The position numbers were made by a program, and so were the translations under genes. Positions 744 through 43,437 of a stretch of 50,758 nucleotides of DNA are shown here, piece after piece (within the stretch, counting starts at the first letter, position 1; every line of letters starts with the position of its first letter). Origin of the DNA: an uncultured Pyrinomonadaceae bacterium (GTDB taxonomy: Bacteria; Acidobacteriota; Blastocatellia; Pyrinomonadales; Pyrinomonadaceae); contig CADCUR010000275.1 of assembly GCA_902805935.1 (NCBI GenBank), positions 1 to 50,758 on the forward strand. The letters are read 5' to 3'. Under the pieces are notes generated by a model. That model worked only from the letters and a program-made list of their open reading frames with translations, did no database searches and was not told where the DNA came from.

Positions 744-3587
744 TTAATAAACGAAAGCATTCGGAACGGGTATGTCGGAAGTTGTCCCGAAAGCCACGCC
801 GGTAAAGCCCGCCTGACTTTGCTGGATATACCAAGTGCCGTTGCGGAACACGGCAACGTCGGCTTTGCCGTCGCCGTCGTAATCCGCCGCCGCCGGTAGA
901 TCGCCCGTCTGTCCGAAAGCGACAGCGACGTAACCGAGCTGGCTGCGCTGGATATACCAAGCGCCGTCACGGAACACAGCAACATCAGATTTGCCGTCGC
1001 CATCGTAATCCGCCGGAACTGCTTTGTCCGTTCCGAATCCGAATTGAATGCCGGTGAATCCAAGCTGGCTGCGCTGGATATACCAAGTGCCGTCGCGGAA
1101 CACGGCGACATCCGTCTTATTATCTCCGTCGTAGTCTGCCGGAACAGGTTTATCGCCCGTTTGTCCGAATTGAATTCCGGTGTATCCGAGTTGCGATTGC
1201 AACAGATACCACGTGCCGGTTGACGGACGGAACACGGCGACATCAGCTTTGCCGTCGCCGTCGTAGTCTGCCGGAGCGGGAATGTCGTCCGCCGCTCCGA
1301 ACTGGATGCCGGTGAAACCAAGTTGACTTCTTTGCAAATACCAAACGCCGGATCGGAAGACGGCTAAATCTGTTTTGCCATCGCCGTCGTAATCTGCTGG
1401 AACGATTTTATCGTTATTGGTTCCAAACTGGGCGCCAGTGAAGCCGTTCTGTGTCTGCAGCAGATACCAGATGCCACCCGCCTGACGAAACACCGAAACG
1501 TCGGCTTTGCCGTCGCCATCGAAATCGAACAATTTACGACTCGCCGTCGTTGACGCCGCGATGGTGAAATCCGCGCCCGAAATATCGAAAAAGATATTGC
1601 CGACCGCTTCGATTTTAATGCGGGCTTGACTGGTATTAACATTCGGCACGGTGATAGTTTCCGTGCCGTCATTGGCGGTCGAAGCCGCCAAAATCGTCGG
1701 GAAAGTTTGTCCGCCGTCGGTCGAAAGGGAAATTTTGACGTTCTGAGCGTTGACTGTCGCGTTGTCGGTTCCGGCGACGTTCCAACTGACGGTTTGCGCG
1801 GAATTGCCCGCCCACGAAACTGCCGTATCCGGCGTGGTTATGGCAAAAGGTCCGCTCGTCGCGTCAATGTTGACGGTTGCGGCACGGCTTCTGACGCCGC
1901 CGCCGTTAAAGCGGTTGTCGCGGACGATAACTTGAAAAATCATCGTGCGCGAAATGCTCGGCAAAATCTCGCCGGTGAGCCGCGAGCCGGTTAGAGTCGG
2001 CGGCACGTTAGCGTTATTCAAAATATATTGAAGGCGCGGAAACGTGCGCGTCGAATCGGTCGTTGGCAGGTACGGGCGGAAAATCGGTCGCTCCTGCCCG
2101 TCGCTGTCCGAGTTGTTAGCCGCGCTCAAGGCGGGCGCGCCCAAATCATACTCCTGCCAATCGTAGGTTAGCGCATCGCCGTTCGGGTCGCTCGCCGTCG
2201 CGGTCATAAAAAACGGCGTTTGTTTCGGAATCGTCAACCCCGTCTGCTCGATGGTCACGTCGGGCGGCGTATTGCCCGTCGAGGTCGCAACGGCGCAGAC
2301 GTTGCCCGTGCCGCTGCTGAACGAAACGATTTCTTCGATTGATTTAACGTGGAAAGTGTCAATGCTGTTACCGGCGAGATTTTGACCCGAGCAAATACCG
2401 GCGTAACCCATAATTGTGATGCCGCTGCCCGTTTCATACGCTGCGCCCGCCGAACGCTGCGCTCCGCAGCTCCCGTTGCCGACGTTGAAAGTGTGGCTGC
2501 CACCGAATTGATGCCCGATTTCGTGGGCGACATAATCAATGGCAAACGGGTCGCCGACCGGAAAGGGAAGTCCGGTGACGCCGCGCGCTTTGCCCGAACC
2601 GCACGGAACGCGGAGGCTGGCGACGCCGCCGCCGCCGGTCGAGAAAACATGACCGATGTCGTAATTTGCCGTGCCGATTACCGAGTCGAGATTCGATTGG
2701 TTTTGAGAGAGCATCGCCGCACCGTTTTCGTTCGTGTATGGATCGGTCGCCGGATCGGTATAGATAATCACGTCTTGATTGCCGACGAGACGCATCGTGA
2801 TCGAGACTTCGCGCTCGTAAACGCCGTTGACGCGGTTCATAATCAAAGCCATCTGCTCAAGCGCTCTGGCTTTGGCTTGCGCGTCGGTGTCGCCGCTTTG
2901 ACGAAACACGTTCGTATATTCGCCGGTCGCAGCCACCGCCAAGCGATAAGTCCGCAGATTCGCGCCGGAGACGACGTTCGGCGCGTCGCCGAACAAATCG
3001 GGAATCGAAGTAAATTCCCCGACGCCGCCGTCGTTTCTGACATCACAGGCGAATTCGCCGTTGCGTTCCGCGTCGCTCTTAAAATAGCTAATGTAATTGC
3101 TCGCGTCGCCAATCGCGTAAGGGTCAACTAAAATAGTTCCTTTTGTCGAAAGAACAATCGCGTGAAAACCCGTCGGCATAAAATCGAAACGCGCGGTTGC
3201 CGCCGGGTCGTCAATGCCTCGGGCGCGGTAAGTTTTAATTTCCGGGTATTTCGCCGCCGCGCCCGATTCAAAAATCGGAGATTCTTCGATGTAAAAGCGG
3301 GCAAACGCGCCGTCGGGCATTGGAATTGTCACGACCGGCAAATTGTTTCGCGCGGCTTCGGTAAACTCCATCGGAGCCTTCCGCAATACGCTGCCGAGCG
3401 CGGTTTTGTCCAGCGTAAAAGTGCGGTACGCGTCCGGAATAATCGGACGCGGCAATTGTCTGCGCTGCAAACTCGCGTCGTCAATTTCGCGCCATAACTT
3501 GTCGGCGGAAGCCGTTCGGTCTTGCCCGGCAGCGTAAACCGCGCCGGCGGTAAAAATCAAAAGTAACAAAAATACCGTCCGTTTCAT
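744..3587 (-). CDS. Secreted reprolysin-like zinc metalloprotease with FG-GAP repeats
   Basis: 947 residues. A Sec signal peptide covers about residues 1-20 (ending VYAAG). A propeptide-like region follows, then a metzincin catalytic domain: the zinc site is HEIGHQFGGSH (H355, E356, H359, H365) and the Met-turn is TIMGYAG (M393). This places it with the reprolysin-like M12B/M72 metallopeptidases. Residues about 430-680 look like beta-sandwich (PKD-like) modules with DPNGD calcium-type turns. The tail (about 685-947) is six FG-GAP/VCBS-type repeats with DxDGDGKxDxxVFR calcium loops, usually surface or adhesion propellers. Probably an extracellular, calcium-stabilised protease. The gene is monocistronic: AT-rich DNA lies upstream and a strong terminator downstream. 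Confidence 0.92.
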   Translation of the reverse strand: MKRTVFLLLLIFTAGAVYAAGQDRTASADKLWREIDDASLQRRQLPRPIIPDAYRTFTLDKTALGSVLRKAPMEFTEAARNNLPVVTIPMPDGAFARFYIEESPIFESGAAAKYPEIKTYRARGIDDPAATARFDFMPTGFHAIVLSTKGTILVDPYAIGDASNYISYFKSDAERNGEFACDVRNDGGVGEFTSIPDLFGDAPNVVSGANLRTYRLAVAATGEYTNVFRQSGDTDAQAKARALEQMALIMNRVNGVYEREVSITMRLVGNQDVIIYTDPATDPYTNENGAAMLSQNQSNLDSVIGTANYDIGHVFSTGGGGVASLRVPCGSGKARGVTGLPFPVGDPFAIDYVAHEIGHQFGGSHTFNVGNGSCGAQRSAGAAYETGSGITIMGYAGICSGQNLAGNSIDTFHVKSIEEIVSFSSGTGNVCAVATSTGNTPPDVTIEQTGLTIPKQTPFFMTATASDPNGDALTYDWQEYDLGAPALSAANNSDSDGQERPIFRPYLPTTDSTRTFPRLQYILNNANVPPTLTGSRLTGEILPSISRTMIFQVIVRDNRFNGGGVRSRAATVNIDATSGPFAITTPDTAVSWAGNSAQTVSWNVAGTDNATVNAQNVKISLSTDGGQTFPTILAASTANDGTETITVPNVNTSQARIKIEAVGNIFFDISGADFTIAASTTASRKLFDFDGDGKADVSVFRQAGGIWYLLQTQNGFTGAQFGTNNDKIVPADYDGDGKTDLAVFRSGVWYLQRSQLGFTGIQFGAADDIPAPADYDGDGKADVAVFRPSTGTWYLLQSQLGYTGIQFGQTGDKPVPADYDGDNKTDVAVFRDGTWYIQRSQLGFTGIQFGFGTDKAVPADYDGDGKSDVAVFRDGAWYIQRSQLGYVAVAFGQTGDLPAAADYDGDGKADVAVFRNGTWYIQQSQAGFTGVAFGTTSDIPVPNAFVY
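753..1533 (-). repeat. Six in-frame FG-GAP coding repeats
   Basis: Six tandem repeats of about 42-45 codons (roughly 126-135 bp) encode the tail of the metalloprotease. Each starts with a DGDGKxD calcium loop, runs through VAVFR and WYLxQSQLG, and ends with xxPADY. Copies 2-5 are the most alike, pointing to internal duplication or recombination. One copy has DGDNKTD instead of DGDGKxD. Confidence 0.9.
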
Positions 3588-36884: not shown

Positions 36885-36914
36885 AATAGTAAAAGGGAAA
36901 TAGTGAAGCGGAGT

Positions 36915-36955
36915 CGTCATTACTAAGCTGTTTGTTTAGTAATGACGGCTTTTTT
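36915..36955. terminator. Terminator after sdhB
   Basis: A perfect 12-bp stem (36915-36926 with 36936-36947) around a 9-nt loop, followed by GC and a long T-run on the plus strand. It ends the sdh transcript and lies in the convergent gap with the GGDEF-EAL gene. Confidence 0.85.
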
Positions 36956-36977
36956 GTTTTTTGCTTTCTTGCTTTTT

Positions 36978-39491
36978 TTATTGAATTCTCATTAATACCG
37001 AAACGTCTTCAAACCTGCTTTCGAGCGCGGTTGATGAAATGCCGGTTTTTTCGTTGAGAAATTCCCGCAAGTCTTCATAATTCATCGGTCGGGAAAAATA
37101 GAAACCCTGCGCGCCCTCACAGTTGAGCTTTTTCAACTGCTCAACCTGCGCTTCGGTTTCGACTCCTTCGGCGATGACCTTCATTCCCAAATTTCTCGCC
37201 AGCAGCACAATCGTTTCGACGATTTCCGTATTTTTGCCGTCTTCGGTGATTGGACTGATAAACGAGCCGTCAATTTTCAGCGTGGAAATCGGCAGCTGCA
37301 TCAAATAGCTTAAATTCGAATAGCCGGTGCCGAAATCGTCAATATACATTTCGATGCCGAAATCGCTTAACTGAGCGAGCATTTCGACCGCCTTTTCGCG
37401 GTGTTCAAAAAAAACCGTTTCGGTTATTTCGAGTTTCAGACGACTCGGCGAAAATTCCGTTTCGTCGAGAATCTGCTTGATTTTGCTCACCAGGTTTTTC
37501 TGGGCAAATTGTTTGCACGAAAGATTGACGCTCAAGGTTAACGGTGAATCAGCGAAGGCGGCGTCTTTGAGAAACCGCATTTGCGAACACGCCTTTCTTA
37601 AAATTTGCTCGCCGAGTCGGTCAATCAAATTAATTTCTTCCGCCAGCGGAATAAATTTGTCGGGCGACAAAACGCCGAACTCGCGGTGCTGCCATCTGGC
37701 GAGAGCCTCAAAGCCTTGCAGCTCGCCGTTTTCCAGCGAATGAATCGGCTGGTAAAAAACGCTCAACTCGTCGCGTTCAATCGCCCGCCGCAAATCGGTT
37801 TCGAGCTGCAACGCTTTTTTGACGGCTTCGTGCATCTTCTCGTTGAAAACTTCGTGGCGGGCTTTGCCGGCGCGTTTCGCCTGATACATCGCTGTGTCCG
37901 CGTCGCGCATTACGTCTTCGGGCGCGAGGTGCTTTTCCGACGCGTGCAGAATGCCGATGCTCGCCGAACTGTAAATTTCGTGTCCGCTTAAATCGAACGG
38001 CTGAACGAACTTTTCCCTCAGCCGTTCGGCGATGCCGACGACTTCGCTCGTTTCGTATCTTCCTTCGACTAGAATCGTAAATTCGTCGCCGCCCAAACGA
38101 GCCACAATATCGTTCGGGCGCAGGCATTCGCGCAGCCGGTCGGAAATGCCGATGAGCAATTGGTCGCCGACGAGATGTCCGAGACTGTCGTTGACAACCT
38201 TAAAGCGGTCAAGGTCAATGAACAAAACACTGACTTTGTAAAGCGGATTCGACTGCGCTTTATCTAACGCTTTGGCGAGCCGCGTCATAAAACAAGCGCG
38301 GTTGGGCAGCCCGGTCAGCGCGTCGTGCGTCGCCTCGTGCTGCAGTTTCTCTTCCGCCGATTTTTTATCGGTGATGTCTTGAATCTGGAAAATCAGACTC
38401 GGACGTTTTTCGTTGACCTCGCTGGCGGTCGAAACGCTCCAACAAGCCCAAACAGTTTTTCCCGTTTTATGAACGTATCGCTGTTCGAGCTGGCAGGTCA
38501 GAATTTTGCCCGTCAAAAGCTCGTGCAGCTTGACGAGCGTGCCGCCCAAATCTTCCTTAAAAAGCATTGACTGAAAATCGGCGGCGAGAAATTCCGCTTC
38601 CGTGTAGCCGAGGATTTCCGTCAGCGCGCGATTGACTTTCAGCCAGCGTCCGTCGGGCGACACGAGCGCGATGCCGATCGGCGCGTAATCGAACGCGCTG
38701 CGAAATCGCTCTTCGGATTCGCGCAGGGCAACCGCTTGTCTTTCGAGAACCCGCGCGTTGCTCTCGGCTTGTTCGGCTTGCGAGGTCGCCATCTCGACGT
38801 TTCTCATATACATCCGGTAGGTCAGATAAATGAAAAAGATAATCGGAAACGTCGCTATAACTACGCCGAAACCGATGTATCCGGTCGCTTTGACTAAAGC
38901 GCCCGCGCTGACTGCGCCGACGAAATAGGTGATAAAAGTCCACGCATACTTGGTCTTCCAAGTTTCCCAAAACGGCTTTTCGCTTTTGAGCGCGCCGTAA
39001 ACGGCGGCTAAAGCGGTATTCGAGAGAAACTGCGTCAGAGCCATCACCGATAACGTGACGAAAAAATTGTTAAAATTATCGGCGTATGTCTCCGCTTGAA
39101 TGTCGCTGTATAATCCGAACGATTTTAAGACCACAACCACTAAAGTTGTAGAGAACGCCATCGCCGCCACATTGAAAAAAACGGTTATTTTTTTATTGCA
39201 GAAACGCCAGGACGAACAAAACGCTTCGACCGCCGCCAGGACGATGGCGATTTTGCCGCCGTATAAAAGCAGGGCGAGAAAGATAAAAGTGTCGGAGACG
39301 GCGATGTGCGATTTGAAACGCGGAATCTCAAGCGTCACTCGTGAGCCGAAGCCGATGGTAAAGCAAAAAAGAATCAAAAAATAGAAATCGAGTTTCTCAA
39401 AGGGCAGATGATAGACAGCCGTCACCAGAGACACAAAACCCACAATGAGAACGCTCAACATGTATATTTTGGTTTTCAGTGGCGTGTTCAT
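36978..39491 (-). CDS. Membrane PAS-GGDEF-EAL protein
   Basis: 837 residues. About seven to eight membrane helices fill residues 8-228, a sensory membrane domain I cannot name. A PAS domain (about 258-375, YAPIGIALVSPDGRWLKVNR) follows, then GGDEF (about 385-550) with intact LGGDEF (467-471) and an RPND inhibitory site, then EAL (about 570-820) with FEALARW, KLEITET, IDDFGTGYSNLSYL, LKIDGSF and AEGVETEAQ. Both catalytic sites look intact, so it may make or degrade c-di-GMP or switch between them. It is a single gene, with its 3' end convergent to sdhB. Confidence 0.92.
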   Translation of the reverse strand: MNTPLKTKIYMLSVLIVGFVSLVTAVYHLPFEKLDFYFLILFCFTIGFGSRVTLEIPRFKSHIAVSDTFIFLALLLYGGKIAIVLAAVEAFCSSWRFCNKKITVFFNVAAMAFSTTLVVVVLKSFGLYSDIQAETYADNFNNFFVTLSVMALTQFLSNTALAAVYGALKSEKPFWETWKTKYAWTFITYFVGAVSAGALVKATGYIGFGVVIATFPIIFFIYLTYRMYMRNVEMATSQAEQAESNARVLERQAVALRESEERFRSAFDYAPIGIALVSPDGRWLKVNRALTEILGYTEAEFLAADFQSMLFKEDLGGTLVKLHELLTGKILTCQLEQRYVHKTGKTVWACWSVSTASEVNEKRPSLIFQIQDITDKKSAEEKLQHEATHDALTGLPNRACFMTRLAKALDKAQSNPLYKVSVLFIDLDRFKVVNDSLGHLVGDQLLIGISDRLRECLRPNDIVARLGGDEFTILVEGRYETSEVVGIAERLREKFVQPFDLSGHEIYSSASIGILHASEKHLAPEDVMRDADTAMYQAKRAGKARHEVFNEKMHEAVKKALQLETDLRRAIERDELSVFYQPIHSLENGELQGFEALARWQHREFGVLSPDKFIPLAEEINLIDRLGEQILRKACSQMRFLKDAAFADSPLTLSVNLSCKQFAQKNLVSKIKQILDETEFSPSRLKLEITETVFFEHREKAVEMLAQLSDFGIEMYIDDFGTGYSNLSYLMQLPISTLKIDGSFISPITEDGKNTEIVETIVLLARNLGMKVIAEGVETEAQVEQLKKLNCEGAQGFYFSRPMNYEDLREFLNEKTGISSTALESRFEDVSVLMRIQ

Positions 39492-39691
39492 AGACGAAAA
39501 GCGGTTTTATAAAAAACTACAAAATCTCAACCGCCTCGAATAGATGCTGATGAGATTTGACTGGTGCTGCAAGAGCTAAAAAATATAATTTTCCAATGTT
39601 GAAGTGAAACAGTTTAAAGAAAGAGGAAGGCTTAACTCTAAGCCCTCCATAATTATAGCGACCAAGAAACATTCTGTCTATGTTTTTTTAG

Positions 39692-40603
39692 TCAAACAAA
39701 TATGGTCTGGCAAGAGCCGGTATTCCTAAAACCAGCTTTCAAAAAACTGCGATGAGCGTTTACAAATTCAACGTTGCTGAGCAGGCAGACGTTTTCAAAT
39801 CGCTCGGTCAATTGCAAACCGAGATTTGCCAGACAACTCGAACCGACGCCTTGCCCGCGATATTCGGGCGCGACGTAGATTCCTTCCAGGTAAACCACGT
39901 CCGAAGTTTCGGCGGCAATATCGGCTTTGAAGACGAGTTTGCCGTTTTCAAAAACGACGAATGTGCGCCGTTGCTCGATTCGTCGCAGGCAGCGTTTCAG
40001 AAAACCCGCGCGGTCTTTCAAAAGCGGGCTGCTGCCGCTTTCGATAAAAGCCACTTCGTCGTGAACTTGGGCGATTTGCTCTAGCTCGCTCGCGTCGGCG
40101 AACCGCACGTTCCAGCGACATTTTTGCACCGGAAAAGGAAAAGTCAATTCAAAGAGCAGTTCCGGGCAGACAAGGCGCGGAGCACCGATGCCGCCCGCGT
40201 AATAGTTCCAAAAACTTTCAATCGTTTGACCGTCAGACATCATAAAATGAATCGGCGTTTCAGATTGTCGCGCGACGAGGGCGAGCGCCGCCAGAGAATC
40301 TTTTGAACGCGTTTCGATTAGCGTCGTGTGACCGATCAGCGCAACCGCTTCGAGCGTTCCCCTGACGTTGCGATAGCCGTAAAACTTGCCGCGATTATCG
40401 GCGCCTTCCATTCCGTTATCCCGTATAAAACTCGCCATCACGATTGTATGCACGGGACGGACGTTCAAGAATTCCAGAACTTCCTGTTCATTTGAGTTTT
40501 CGAGCAGCCGCAAACAGGACATTTCGGGAGCGGTTTGCGGGAAGATTTCCCGATCCGCGACGGCGTTGCGATGGGCGATGGATTTCGCGTTTCGGTAATT
40601 CAT
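39692..40603 (-). CDS. GNAT acetyltransferase with DUF4081-like N-domain
   Basis: 303 residues. The C-terminal GNAT domain (about 165-303) has VVYLEGIYVAPEYRGQGVGS with the QGVG acetyl-CoA loop. The N-terminal half (VLEFLNVRPVHTIVMASFIR, FYGYRNVRGTLEAVALIGHT) resembles the DUF4081 domain found fused to GNATs in actinobacteria and others. Substrate unknown. It starts 44 bp downstream of the subtilase gene on the same strand and may be co-transcribed with it, though read-through is not proved. Soluble, no signal peptide. Confidence 0.85.
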   Translation of the reverse strand: MNYRNAKSIAHRNAVADREIFPQTAPEMSCLRLLENSNEQEVLEFLNVRPVHTIVMASFIRDNGMEGADNRGKFYGYRNVRGTLEAVALIGHTTLIETRSKDSLAALALVARQSETPIHFMMSDGQTIESFWNYYAGGIGAPRLVCPELLFELTFPFPVQKCRWNVRFADASELEQIAQVHDEVAFIESGSSPLLKDRAGFLKRCLRRIEQRRTFVVFENGKLVFKADIAAETSDVVYLEGIYVAPEYRGQGVGSSCLANLGLQLTERFENVCLLSNVEFVNAHRSFLKAGFRNTGSCQTIFV

Positions 40604-40647
40604 AATCAGTTTCTCCTCTTGGTTTTTGATTCGGCAAACTCCTGCTG

Positions 40648-43254
40648 TTACATTCCAGGCGTAGCATCGCCCGCCAAAATTAAATGTGCCGTTGTCGCAT
40701 CGCTGATCAGCACGCCGTCACTGATTAAAACGCCGTCACTGATTAAAACGCCGTCGCCGATTACCATGCCGTCGGAGATTAACACGCCATCTGAAATTAA
40801 CACGCCGTCGCTTACCAAAACGCCGTCGGAGATTAGCACGCCGTCGCTGATTAAAACACCGAAGGCTATGAAAACTTCGCCGTCGCCCATTTCCGCGCCA
40901 TTGCTGATTAACGCTTTTGGAGCGAGCGTCAAAGCAGAATGGCTGGCGAAATTAGCGTTCAGAACGTATTGATGAGCAGAATCGTGCGAAACGCCTTTTT
41001 CAAACCACAAAGCATTGCGGTAAACGTTGTGGAAAGTGCTGGCGAGCGTTTGTCCTTTTAAATAAGCGTGGTCTGCCAGAATGCCTTGCGCCCAAGTGAA
41101 GCTCGAGCCGCTAAAAGTCGAGTTGACTGCCGGAAAGTTCGCGCCCGCCGCTAGCAAATTCATTCCCGAAGTTGCCGAGTTATTAAAATTAACGTCGCTT
41201 CGATAAGTTCGGGCGAGACGAACCGCGCCGTCGAGATTCAATTGTCCGGCGCCTTGTTCAAACATATTGGAGCCGCTCAAAGGCTGCGCGGTGTATTGGA
41301 GAATCATTTTGATCATCGAAGGCGTCAGTTTCGGATTAACCTCGTAAAGCAAAGCCGCCGCGCCCGCCACCGCCGGAGCCGCCGCCGATGTGCCGGACAT
41401 ATACATCATCGCGTTGGTTGGGTCGTTCGTATCGAGCGCCGGGGTGGATAAATTCGGATTCTCGGTCGCCAGCAAACAATCGAATTTCGATTTCGCCGAA
41501 ATGATCTTATTGCCGGGCGCAACCAAGTCGGGTTTGATAATGTTATCGTGAATTCGCTGACCGTTCGGGCGAGTGTAAAATGAGCGCGTTGGACCATGCG
41601 AACTAAAGGTCGCCAGTAAATCGTCATCACGGTTGTCTGTCCCGAGCGTATTCGAGGCGCCGACGGTCAAAACCGTCGGGTCGTTGCCCGGCGAGTGAAT
41701 ATGCCCGTATAGTTTTTCTCCATTATCGTAGTTTTTGCCTTCGTTGCCGGCGGCGGCGACCACTAAAATCCCGAGCGCGGAAAGCTGCCGAACTTTGACG
41801 CAAACCGGATCGTTCGTGTAAGTGTCAATCGCCGGACCGCCGAGACTTAAATTCACGACTTTGATGTTGTAGGCGGCGCGGTTAGCGATAATCCAATCAA
41901 GCGCGTTTAAAAGCCAAGCGGTTCTGCCCAAACCGTTGTCTGCCAAAACTTTCAAATTAACAATATCGGCTTTCGACGCAATGCCTTTATAGGCGCGAGA
42001 ATCTCTTTGCGCGTTGCCCGCGGCAATCGCGGCGACGTGGGTTCCGTGTCCGAAGTTATCGTCGGCAGTCGCGTCGGTCGTGAAATTCTTGCTGTAAACG
42101 ACACGGCTTCCGTTCGATGAGTCGGTAAAAGCCCGATGATTTGTTGTAATGCCCGAATCGAGAACGGCGATGCCGATTCCTTTGCCGTCGAGCGTGTAGG
42201 ACCAACGACCGTTAAATGCCGGTTGCGCGCGCATCGCTGCTGCGCCGGTTGTGTTTTCCAGATGACCGGATGTTCTCATTTCGCGGTCGGGCGACATATA
42301 GTTGATGATGCCGCTGCTCGCTAAAGTCTGCACCGCGCTCAAAGGCAAATTGACAATTATCGTGTCGCTGTCGCCGACGCGGTTTTTGAAACGAATTTGG
42401 TTTTGCGCCATTATTTCGCGCAAAATTTGGCTGTCCGCGTCTTTCGATTGAATAATTACGTCAACGCGTTTTTCGCCGCTCAAATCGTTCGCCATCATTT
42501 CGCGCAAATCCGGCGAAACCGTATCGCCGCGATAGCCGAGCGGATTTTCAACTGAATTCTTCTGTTCAACTTCTTCTGCATACGAGTTAGCGTCGCCGAT
42601 TGTAATCGGTTGGAAAACCGCCGCGAGTTCAACTGAGTTTTCGATTCTTTCGTTAAATGCGGCTTGCGAGCTGCCGCCGATGATACGCGCTTTTCCCTTT
42701 AGAAGAAGTTCGGTGAGGGCGTTGTTGATTTGCACCGAGCCGACAAAATTTGTTAACTCGTCAATGTATAAGATGACATCATTTTTTGAACCGGCGAGTT
42801 CTGCGAAAATGTCAGCAACAATCTTCGATGTTTCCGCTTTATCTTTTGGGTTAGAGAACAGCGAATCGAGTTCGAGCTGCAAAACGCGCTTATCTTTTAA
42901 CTGAGCCGGAACGTCGCCGGACGCGATGCGCACGGCGAGCGATTCGACGACGAGCGTTTGATTTTCACCATCTTCGTCCAAGATAACCGGCTGCCGAACG
43001 CTGCCGCTCGCTAACGCTTCGACGAGTCGAGCAACTTCGCGCTCGTAACGGGCGTTTCCGCCGAATCTGCCCGCGCGGGCGAGTTCGGTTAAATCGGTCG
43101 CGTATTGTCTGAGCGCAGGCTTTTTCACCGAATCTTTACTAGCGCTGAGCGTGAATGCCTGAATCGTCGAAACGTTCGAGAACACGAAAGAAGCGAGTAA
43201 GACGAAAGTCAAAACTTTTGTCGCAAAATTAAATTGTTTTTTGAAGAACATCAT
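40648..43254 (-). CDS. Secreted S8 subtilisin-like protease with ClpB-like and hexapeptide-repeat parts
   Basis: 868 residues. A signal peptide covers about 1-33. Residues about 50-222 read like the D1 AAA+ domain of ClpB/ClpC with a ruined Walker A (details in findings). An I9-like propeptide (about 262-325) is followed by the S8 domain, with catalytic D366 (AVLDSGI), H403 (FGHGTHVA), oxyanion N504 (AAAGNEG) and S623 (SGTSAAAP). The C-terminus (about 730-868) has nine GVLISD-type hexapeptides. It is expected outside the cytoplasm, degrading proteins. A perfect sigma-54 promoter lies 68 bp upstream. The combination of parts is unusual. The protease call is secure, the N-terminal origin is by eye. 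Confidence 0.93.
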   Translation of the reverse strand: MMFFKKQFNFATKVLTFVLLASFVFSNVSTIQAFTLSASKDSVKKPALRQYATDLTELARAGRFGGNARYEREVARLVEALASGSVRQPVILDEDGENQTLVVESLAVRIASGDVPAQLKDKRVLQLELDSLFSNPKDKAETSKIVADIFAELAGSKNDVILYIDELTNFVGSVQINNALTELLLKGKARIIGGSSQAAFNERIENSVELAAVFQPITIGDANSYAEEVEQKNSVENPLGYRGDTVSPDLREMMANDLSGEKRVDVIIQSKDADSQILREIMAQNQIRFKNRVGDSDTIIVNLPLSAVQTLASSGIINYMSPDREMRTSGHLENTTGAAAMRAQPAFNGRWSYTLDGKGIGIAVLDSGITTNHRAFTDSSNGSRVVYSKNFTTDATADDNFGHGTHVAAIAAGNAQRDSRAYKGIASKADIVNLKVLADNGLGRTAWLLNALDWIIANRAAYNIKVVNLSLGGPAIDTYTNDPVCVKVRQLSALGILVVAAAGNEGKNYDNGEKLYGHIHSPGNDPTVLTVGASNTLGTDNRDDDLLATFSSHGPTRSFYTRPNGQRIHDNIIKPDLVAPGNKIISAKSKFDCLLATENPNLSTPALDTNDPTNAMMYMSGTSAAAPAVAGAAALLYEVNPKLTPSMIKMILQYTAQPLSGSNMFEQGAGQLNLDGAVRLARTYRSDVNFNNSATSGMNLLAAGANFPAVNSTFSGSSFTWAQGILADHAYLKGQTLASTFHNVYRNALWFEKGVSHDSAHQYVLNANFASHSALTLAPKALISNGAEMGDGEVFIAFGVLISDGVLISDGVLVSDGVLISDGVLISDGMVIGDGVLISDGVLISDGVLISDATTAHLILAGDATPGM
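40699..40860 (-). repeat. 18-bp tandem repeat encoding GVLISD hexapeptides
   Basis: Nine 18-bp units near the 3' end of the subtilase gene: eight GVLISD or GVLVSD and one GMVIGD. Unit length is a multiple of three, so copy-number change would keep the frame. Period six with a small hydrophobic pattern fits a beta-helix or beta-roll spacer. Confidence 0.95.
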
Positions 43255-43321
43255 TATTTTTATGGCTGTTTATCAGCGGAAAAATTTGGCTTATAATACA
43301 CAACTTGCCGCAAGGGTTTTG

Positions 43322-43336
43322 GCAACGATTGTGCCG
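43322..43336 (-). promoter_or_regulatory. Sigma-54 promoter for the S8 protease gene
   Basis: Minus strand CGGCACAATCGTTGC: GG and GC exactly 10 nt apart with GGCAC and TTGC intact. It is 68 bp before the protease start codon. I did not find the ACGATATAGT upstream core near it. Confidence 0.85.
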
Positions 43337-43437
43337 GAAGACTAAGTGAAGCAATATTAAGGTTTAATTCGTTTTTAAGAATAGCGGCGACGGTTTTTTC
43401 AATCAAATTGAATGAATGATTCGGGCAGATTGAACGA

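Follow-up and report, generated by a model that had tools for sequence, protein, structure and literature searches.

A degenerate ClpB D1 domain lies ahead of the pro-domain in predicted secreted subtilases of Pyrinomonadaceae

The window, the whole stretch of 50,758 nucleotides of Pyrinomonadaceae DNA analyzed here, contains a minus-strand ORF that encodes a subtilase with an embedded D1 domain (Table 1). The S8 domain is matched by Pfam PF00082 (Peptidase_S8) with E=9e-51. Asp366, His403 and Ser623, the catalytic triad of S8 proteases, and Asn504, the oxyanion residue, are invariant in 25 of 25 aligned family proteins. With the domain and all active-site residues present, the protease is a predicted active S8 subtilase. 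The region assigned as the pro-domain has the order beta-alpha-beta-beta-alpha-beta in the full-length model, whose best PDB fold match is 3afg, a subtilase with an N-terminal propeptide. The Pfam family Fervidolysin_NPro-like is matched by 4 of 25 relatives in this region (best 0.0007); the window protein itself does not match it. In the window gene, the hexapeptide-like GVLISD repeats are encoded by 18-bp tandem repeats at 40700-40861. Several relatives also carry C-terminal repeats, each with its own near-uniform unit (e.g. GITMAD, GVLLSD, GILMSD), which suggests homogenization within genes. The D1-protease gene belongs to a block at 36900-43430 that also holds a GGDEF/EAL gene and an acetyltransferase (GNAT) gene. 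Elsewhere in the window, 747-3587 encodes a Reprolysin-like metallopeptidase of 947 aa with FG-GAP repeats.

Table 1. Features of the D1-protease gene and its product; positions are those of the window.
Feature	Residues	Position	Strand	Basis or remark
Whole gene: signal peptide, degenerate ClpB D1, pro-domain, S8 subtilase, hexapeptide-like repeats		40648..43254	-	868 aa
Signal-peptide-like N terminus	about 1-33	43156..43254	-	basic start and hydrophobic stretch in sequence; model helix 10-36
Degenerate ClpB D1, large AAA+ subdomain	46-221	42592..43119	-	profile and PDB homology, model fold
Former Walker A loop, DEDGENQT vs ClpB GEPGVGKT	93-100	42955..42978	-	
Former pore loop, aromatic gone	136-140	42835..42849	-	
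Walker B strand, ILYIDEL, retained	161-167	42754..42774	-	
Former arginine-finger site, AAVF vs ClpB ERRF	211-214	42613..42624	-	
Linker and conserved junction GDTVSPDLREM	222-252	42499..42591	-	
Subtilisin-type pro-domain	about 246-325	42280..42519	-	model secondary structure, relatives' Pfam matches, PDB fold match
S8 catalytic domain, Asp366, His403, Asn504, Ser623	357-670	41245..42186	-	Pfam
C-terminal hexapeptide-like repeats	about 795-852	40699..40872	-	18-bp tandem repeats, unit GVLISD

Sequence and structural analysis identified the segment between the signal peptide and the pro-domain as a degenerate ClpB D1 by descent. This identity is near certain; its function we infer below. A sequence-only reading of the window had recognized ClpB/ClpC D1 motifs almost in order across residues about 50-222 (42589-43107). 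The motifs it quoted are found in the translation, and the match to ClpB is colinear. The NCBIfam ClpB profile TIGR03346 matches residues 36-245 of the window protein with E=6.3e-27 (profile positions 151-336 of 853), and a phmmer search against the PDB found ClpB 4hse with E=2.5e-24, colinear across the D1 large subdomain. Of the two profile matches proposed as a check, the one to ClpB is significant; Pfam AAA is not reached by the window protein alone, and no Pfam family was assigned to its D1 segment. Pfam AAA is reached by 11 of 25 family members (best 8.5e-7). An AlphaFold2 model of D1 built from 24 aligned D1 sequences has a mean pLDDT of 90.1, and Foldseek aligned it to ClpB NBD1 (1jbk) with a TM-score of 0.88 and an rmsd of 1.6. 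The best 50 of 1313 Foldseek matches (E<=10) are all ClpB, ClpC, ClpA or Hsp104 entries. Neither of the refuting outcomes named in the sequence-only reading was obtained, since the Clp matches are significant and the model has the AAA+ fold, and chance similarity to ClpB is ruled out by the TIGR03346 and 4hse E-values and the model fold. The match is limited to that part of the ClpB profile, the S8 protein follows, and the small subdomain of ClpB D1, the middle domain, D2 and the N domain are absent. The D1 fold is retained in the full-length model (pLDDT 67.6). The placement of D1 relative to the enzyme is not fixed by this model, because its pTM is 0.52 and residues 222-242 have pLDDT below 50.

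The motifs that drive ATP binding and translocation in ClpB are mostly lost. The Walker A glycines and Lys had been reported as gone, and the loop indeed reads DEDGENQT in place of GEPGVGKT; Walker B had been reported as present, and IDEL is retained. Substitutions in the window protein have likewise removed the pore-loop Tyr (ClpB AKYRG) and both finger Args (ERRF). Among 106 family ORFs, none has a Walker A GK[TS], a pore-loop aromatic or an RR finger. Any Arg is found at the finger site in 17/106, and GK is kept in two ORFs, as GETGVGKA in G025 and GETPYGKA in G083. With its P-loop, finger and pore loop gone, the window D1 should be unable to bind ATP normally; the two members that retain GK might still bind it. 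Walker B DE is found in 19 ORFs, the window protein among them, two acidic residues occupy this site in 49/106, and the sensor-1 T/N is found in 41/106.

Conservation within D1 peaks at core positions common with ClpB (F214, Y/F200, Y51, P116, D54, A107, P89, L119, L81 and T56). Compared to the D1 mean of 1.59 bits, most columns of the P-loop (6 of 8), the pore (4 of 5) and the finger (3 of 4) are less conserved, and every column of Walker B (7) and sensor-1 (4) is more conserved. Drift is therefore not uniformly allowed across the old active site, a point against the nucleotide-free reading preferred below. Walker B and sensor-1 are located on core strands, and the fold might account for their conservation; this conservation also leaves room for some use of that edge of the pocket. 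An extreme form of D1 is found in L047, in which the P-loop region is missing.

A signal peptide had likewise been proposed, and the N terminus of the window protein is signal-peptide-like as judged by its sequence. A simple heuristic placed a hydrophobic stretch, with K/R before it, ahead of D1 in 104 of the 105 ORFs scored; the remaining one of the 106 had too short an upstream region and was omitted. An AxA site is found in no more than 54/105, which weakens the case for export. D1 would thus be located outside the cytoplasm, which argues against a cytoplasmic hexamer.

A search with the full protein against 59 relatives revealed D1-bearing homologues across many genera of the window's family; among the matches listed, those to residues 44-222 alone were Clp-sized frames. 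With a profile of D1 plus pro-domain, 106 full-span rows were found among the matches listed, in 75 of the 119 genomes of the window's family within 162 class genomes. The survey suggested by the sequence-only reading thus shows that the architecture recurs. The other 43 genomes of the class, from other families, had none among the matches listed, which reach about E=4e-59; weaker full-span members in any family may lie beyond. These yielded at least 106 distinct full-span D1-protease ORFs, all from one family; they come from 75 genomes in 20 genera, each genome with 1-3 copies. Across 396 genomes of the window's own phylum (368 outside the family), with up to five candidates scored per genome, the listed full-span matches are only inside the window's family.

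Since a ClpB match could mask a weaker fusion, the whole protein was also used as a query. Subtilase matches listed from outside the family all start after D1. Their first matched residue is 231 or higher in 23 genomes (among the matches listed), 245 or higher in 20 genomes (all 25 rows), and again 231 or higher in the 368 genomes, where up to two candidates per genome were scored, at E<=1e-75 only. One contig of a genome outside the family (G156:C613:28642-44547) carries seven consecutive D1-less subtilase matches. A D1-profile search of 17 genomes showed no recognizable other fusion partner of D1, as judged by frame lengths and known loci. Among the odd rows of this search, those of G036 and G099 were opened, and stretches from G071 and G110 were left out. 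G036 (L160 2854-12712) contains three adjacent large double AAA+ Clp-like proteins of 768-1108 aa with unusual N-terminal regions. A broken clp-like D1 remnant is found in G099 (two contigs; L161 1637-2184). Of 1607 matching plasmid records, not one reaches 80% coverage of the query (D1 plus pro-domain), and the ten shown are clpB. A scan of genome contigs gave one partial match, to residues 64-125 at 34%, in a SAR86 genome.

To place the origin of D1, we analyzed a tree of 59 sequences, 45 protease D1s and 14 Clp proteins, in which some branches are long. A branch supported at 100/99 sets the protease D1s apart, and they join among ClpB-type sequences with moderate support. Bit scores with the family D1 profile are 209-223 for ClpB-type D1s, 174-178 for ClpC-like ones and 156 for ClpA. 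In one genome (G010, L040 1342-5999), the D1-protease gene is adjacent to and divergent from a ClpC-like gene. The ClpC origin hinted at by this neighbor was not favored, since the tree, with its moderately supported attachment, and the profile scores are nearer ClpB. The near-intact P-loop of L019 may or may not be ancestral, as the tree does not resolve the base of D1.

A quick S8 tree of 61 rows contains six changes of D1 presence, two of them forced by well-supported branches; L012 is scored as D1-less there solely because its contig ends within the gene. One origin together with six presence changes indicates several losses of D1. In D1-less relatives, a similar signal peptide leads straight to a GDKVSPDLR-type junction. 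Since both elements are common to the two forms, D1 reads as a cassette between them. D1 is absent in many close relatives, so such proteases can manage without it. Two tandem adjacent subtilases, one with D1 and one without, are found in G014 (L042 2959-8808). In the window's genus, 1 of 9 genomes (G000) has the D1 form among the matches listed. The 36900-43430 block is absent in the sisters G001 and G003, in which its flanking genes (36.9 and 43.4 kb in the window) stand next to each other. The D1 pattern in this genus fits either gain or loss. The site of the block is a variable spot, with about 2.9 kb of other sequence in G004.

D1 is under purifying selection, as judged from codon comparisons. 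In 9 of 12 hand-chosen pairs (those with finite dS), its dN/dS is 0.10-0.31, similar to that of the neighboring pro-domain. D1 evolves faster than S8 in most pairs, and at about the rate of the pro-domain or faster. Because dS is near saturation in most pairs, these values show constraint and not its exact size.

The D1-subtilase is a new architecture made of known parts. It shares with ClpB/Hsp104 NBD1 (1jbk, 4hse) a colinear homology and the AAA+ core fold. Unlike ClpB/Hsp104, it lacks Walker A, the pore aromatic, the finger Arg pair and the small subdomain, D2, middle and N domains, and it is predicted to be exported and is fused to a protease. Like the S8 subtilases ProN-Tk-SP (3afg) and pro-subtilisin E (3whi), its pro-domain precedes a catalytic domain that carries Asp/His/Ser and the oxyanion Asn, whereas the folded AAA+ module before the pro-domain and the hexapeptide-like C-terminal repeats are additions. 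ClpAP/ClpCP, FtsH and Lon are ATP-driven AAA+ proteases of the cytoplasm or membrane with other protease folds. They also bring AAA+ and protease together in one system; here the protease is a subtilase, and functional ATPase motifs are missing.

The closest precedent comes from eukaryotes. LAP1 and LULL1 are degenerate luminal AAA+ proteins of the ER and nuclear envelope that lack Walker A/B and do not bind nucleotide (PMC4999309, PMC5425593), and they supply an Arg finger to Torsin (PMC4999309, PMC5425593, PMC7175109). They resemble D1 in having a degenerate AAA+ scaffold outside the cytoplasm without the C-terminal small domain or helix bundle. In contrast, LAP1 and LULL1 are eukaryotic membrane proteins and finger donors, and D1 is bacterial and fused to a protease. 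The RR pair for activation of this type is found in 0/106 ORFs; the LULL1 finger sits elsewhere in its fold. Torsins are also Clp/Hsp100 kin in a secretory compartment without aromatic pore loops, but they bind ATP and hydrolyze it with a cofactor (PMC7175109). A preprint survey of Acidobacteriota genomes counts peptidases, and its excerpted text does not mention the D1-subtilase layout (PMC11245096). Searches of open PMC papers did not turn up any account of a secreted subtilase that contains a Clp domain.

In subtilases, the pro-domain assists folding, inhibits the enzyme and is cleaved away. D1 is located ahead of such a pro-domain and is expected to leave with it, because subtilases shed their pro-domains. 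On balance we lean towards D1 being an exapted, nucleotide-free Hsp100 D1 that serves as an extra module of the zymogen pro-region and is shed with the pro-domain. The sequence-only reading had suggested that a Clp D1 without Walker A acts as an accessory or propeptide-type domain, and our analysis supports it for identity, placement and family conservation. From its place upstream of a subtilisin-type pro-domain, D1 would be part of the cleaved pro-region, and it is probably removed at maturation. In an ancestor belonging to one bacterial family, the D1 large subdomain of a ClpB-like Hsp100 was inserted, apparently once, into a secreted subtilase, behind the signal peptide and ahead of the pro-domain. 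It was then inherited together with the protease and later lost in places. The AAA+ fold was retained under purifying selection, and the features for nucleotide binding, hydrolysis and substrate translocation were lost. After export, D1 would fold and could support or shield the enzyme or the pro-domain during export and folding. Given its position and subtilase biology, D1 and the pro-domain would be released together upon self-cleavage at the pro/catalytic junction, at residues about 326-357. D1 may in this way aid export, folding or the timing of activation. The scarcity of ATP outside the cytoplasm would favor loss of the ATP site while the fold stays useful.

Other explanations are less likely. 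D1 could persist on the mature enzyme, or associated with it, and serve to bind or anchor it to a partner, a substrate or the cell surface. It is folded and constrained and is followed by a disordered linker, and the enzyme works without it in some relatives, as would be expected with an accessory domain. However, D1 is N-terminal to a pro-domain of the kind that subtilases are established to remove, 1 of 219 columns is invariant, and the conserved columns contain no strong surface motif of D1's own. We regard such retention as a real but minor possibility. It is distinctly unlikely that what used to be the nucleotide pocket now works as an acidic site for a cation, e.g. Ca2+, and stabilizes or times the extracellular zymogen. 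The former P-loop columns are 33% D/E compared to 13.6% across D1, with K/R unchanged, and they rank second among 168 eight-column windows for acidic excess. DExGENQE-type loops occur in one subclade, ENQ is found in 16/106 ORFs, and the paired acidic residues at Walker B could contribute. The loop is variable across the family, however; a net acidic excess of at least 2 is found in 63/106 loops and wanting in 43/106, and the window with the top acidic excess is located elsewhere and is already acidic in ClpB. A related proposal is similarly doubtful: the Hsp100 pocket would have been rebuilt after export into an acidic cation site that controls when the zymogen folds or becomes active, which would make D1 an extracellular pseudo-AAA+ switch in bacteria. 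We would be as hesitant to read GETGVGKA of G025, the acid-reversed DExGENQE and L047 without a P-loop as the living intermediates of such a switch.

The rapid change of D1 compared to S8, its extreme forms such as L047 and its absence from many relatives might instead mark it as a passenger, a decaying but tolerated relic of an accidental fusion. This is quite improbable, as dN/dS is well under 1, at least 106 full-length ORFs remain open in 20 genera, and the predicted fold is confident. A remaining role in ATP chemistry, either independent or through complementing an AAA+ partner's active site in the way LAP1/LULL1 serve Torsin, would be consistent with GK in 2/106 ORFs, with the conservation of the Walker B and sensor-1 columns and with that precedent. 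It is very improbable indeed given the absence of GK[TS] and RR from all 106 ORFs, the absence of the small subdomain, the predicted export and the fact that no partner is known. The window genome is a 317-contig assembly, which might point to a chimera or a mistaken gene start. Either is virtually out of the question: the same layout is found in 75 genomes, including G099 (2 contigs), G071 (3) and G110 (7), and a start codon downstream of D1 is rejected by the hydrophobic stretch with K/R before D1 in 104 of 105 ORFs.

An exapted D1 in the pro-region has several implications. Similarity-based annotation may mislabel D1-subtilases as ClpB-like ATPases. Subtilases, enzymes in wide use, would gain a novel type of pro-region, and D1-subtilases are a bacterial counterpart of the degenerate AAA+ domains of LAP1/LULL1. 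In this bacterial family, an AAA+ motor of the cell interior has become part of a protease that is predicted to leave the cytoplasm, and it was seemingly kept for its shape. AAA+ motors are otherwise ATP machines of the cell interior. Relatives are found at several stages, so the change from motor to scaffold becomes testable.
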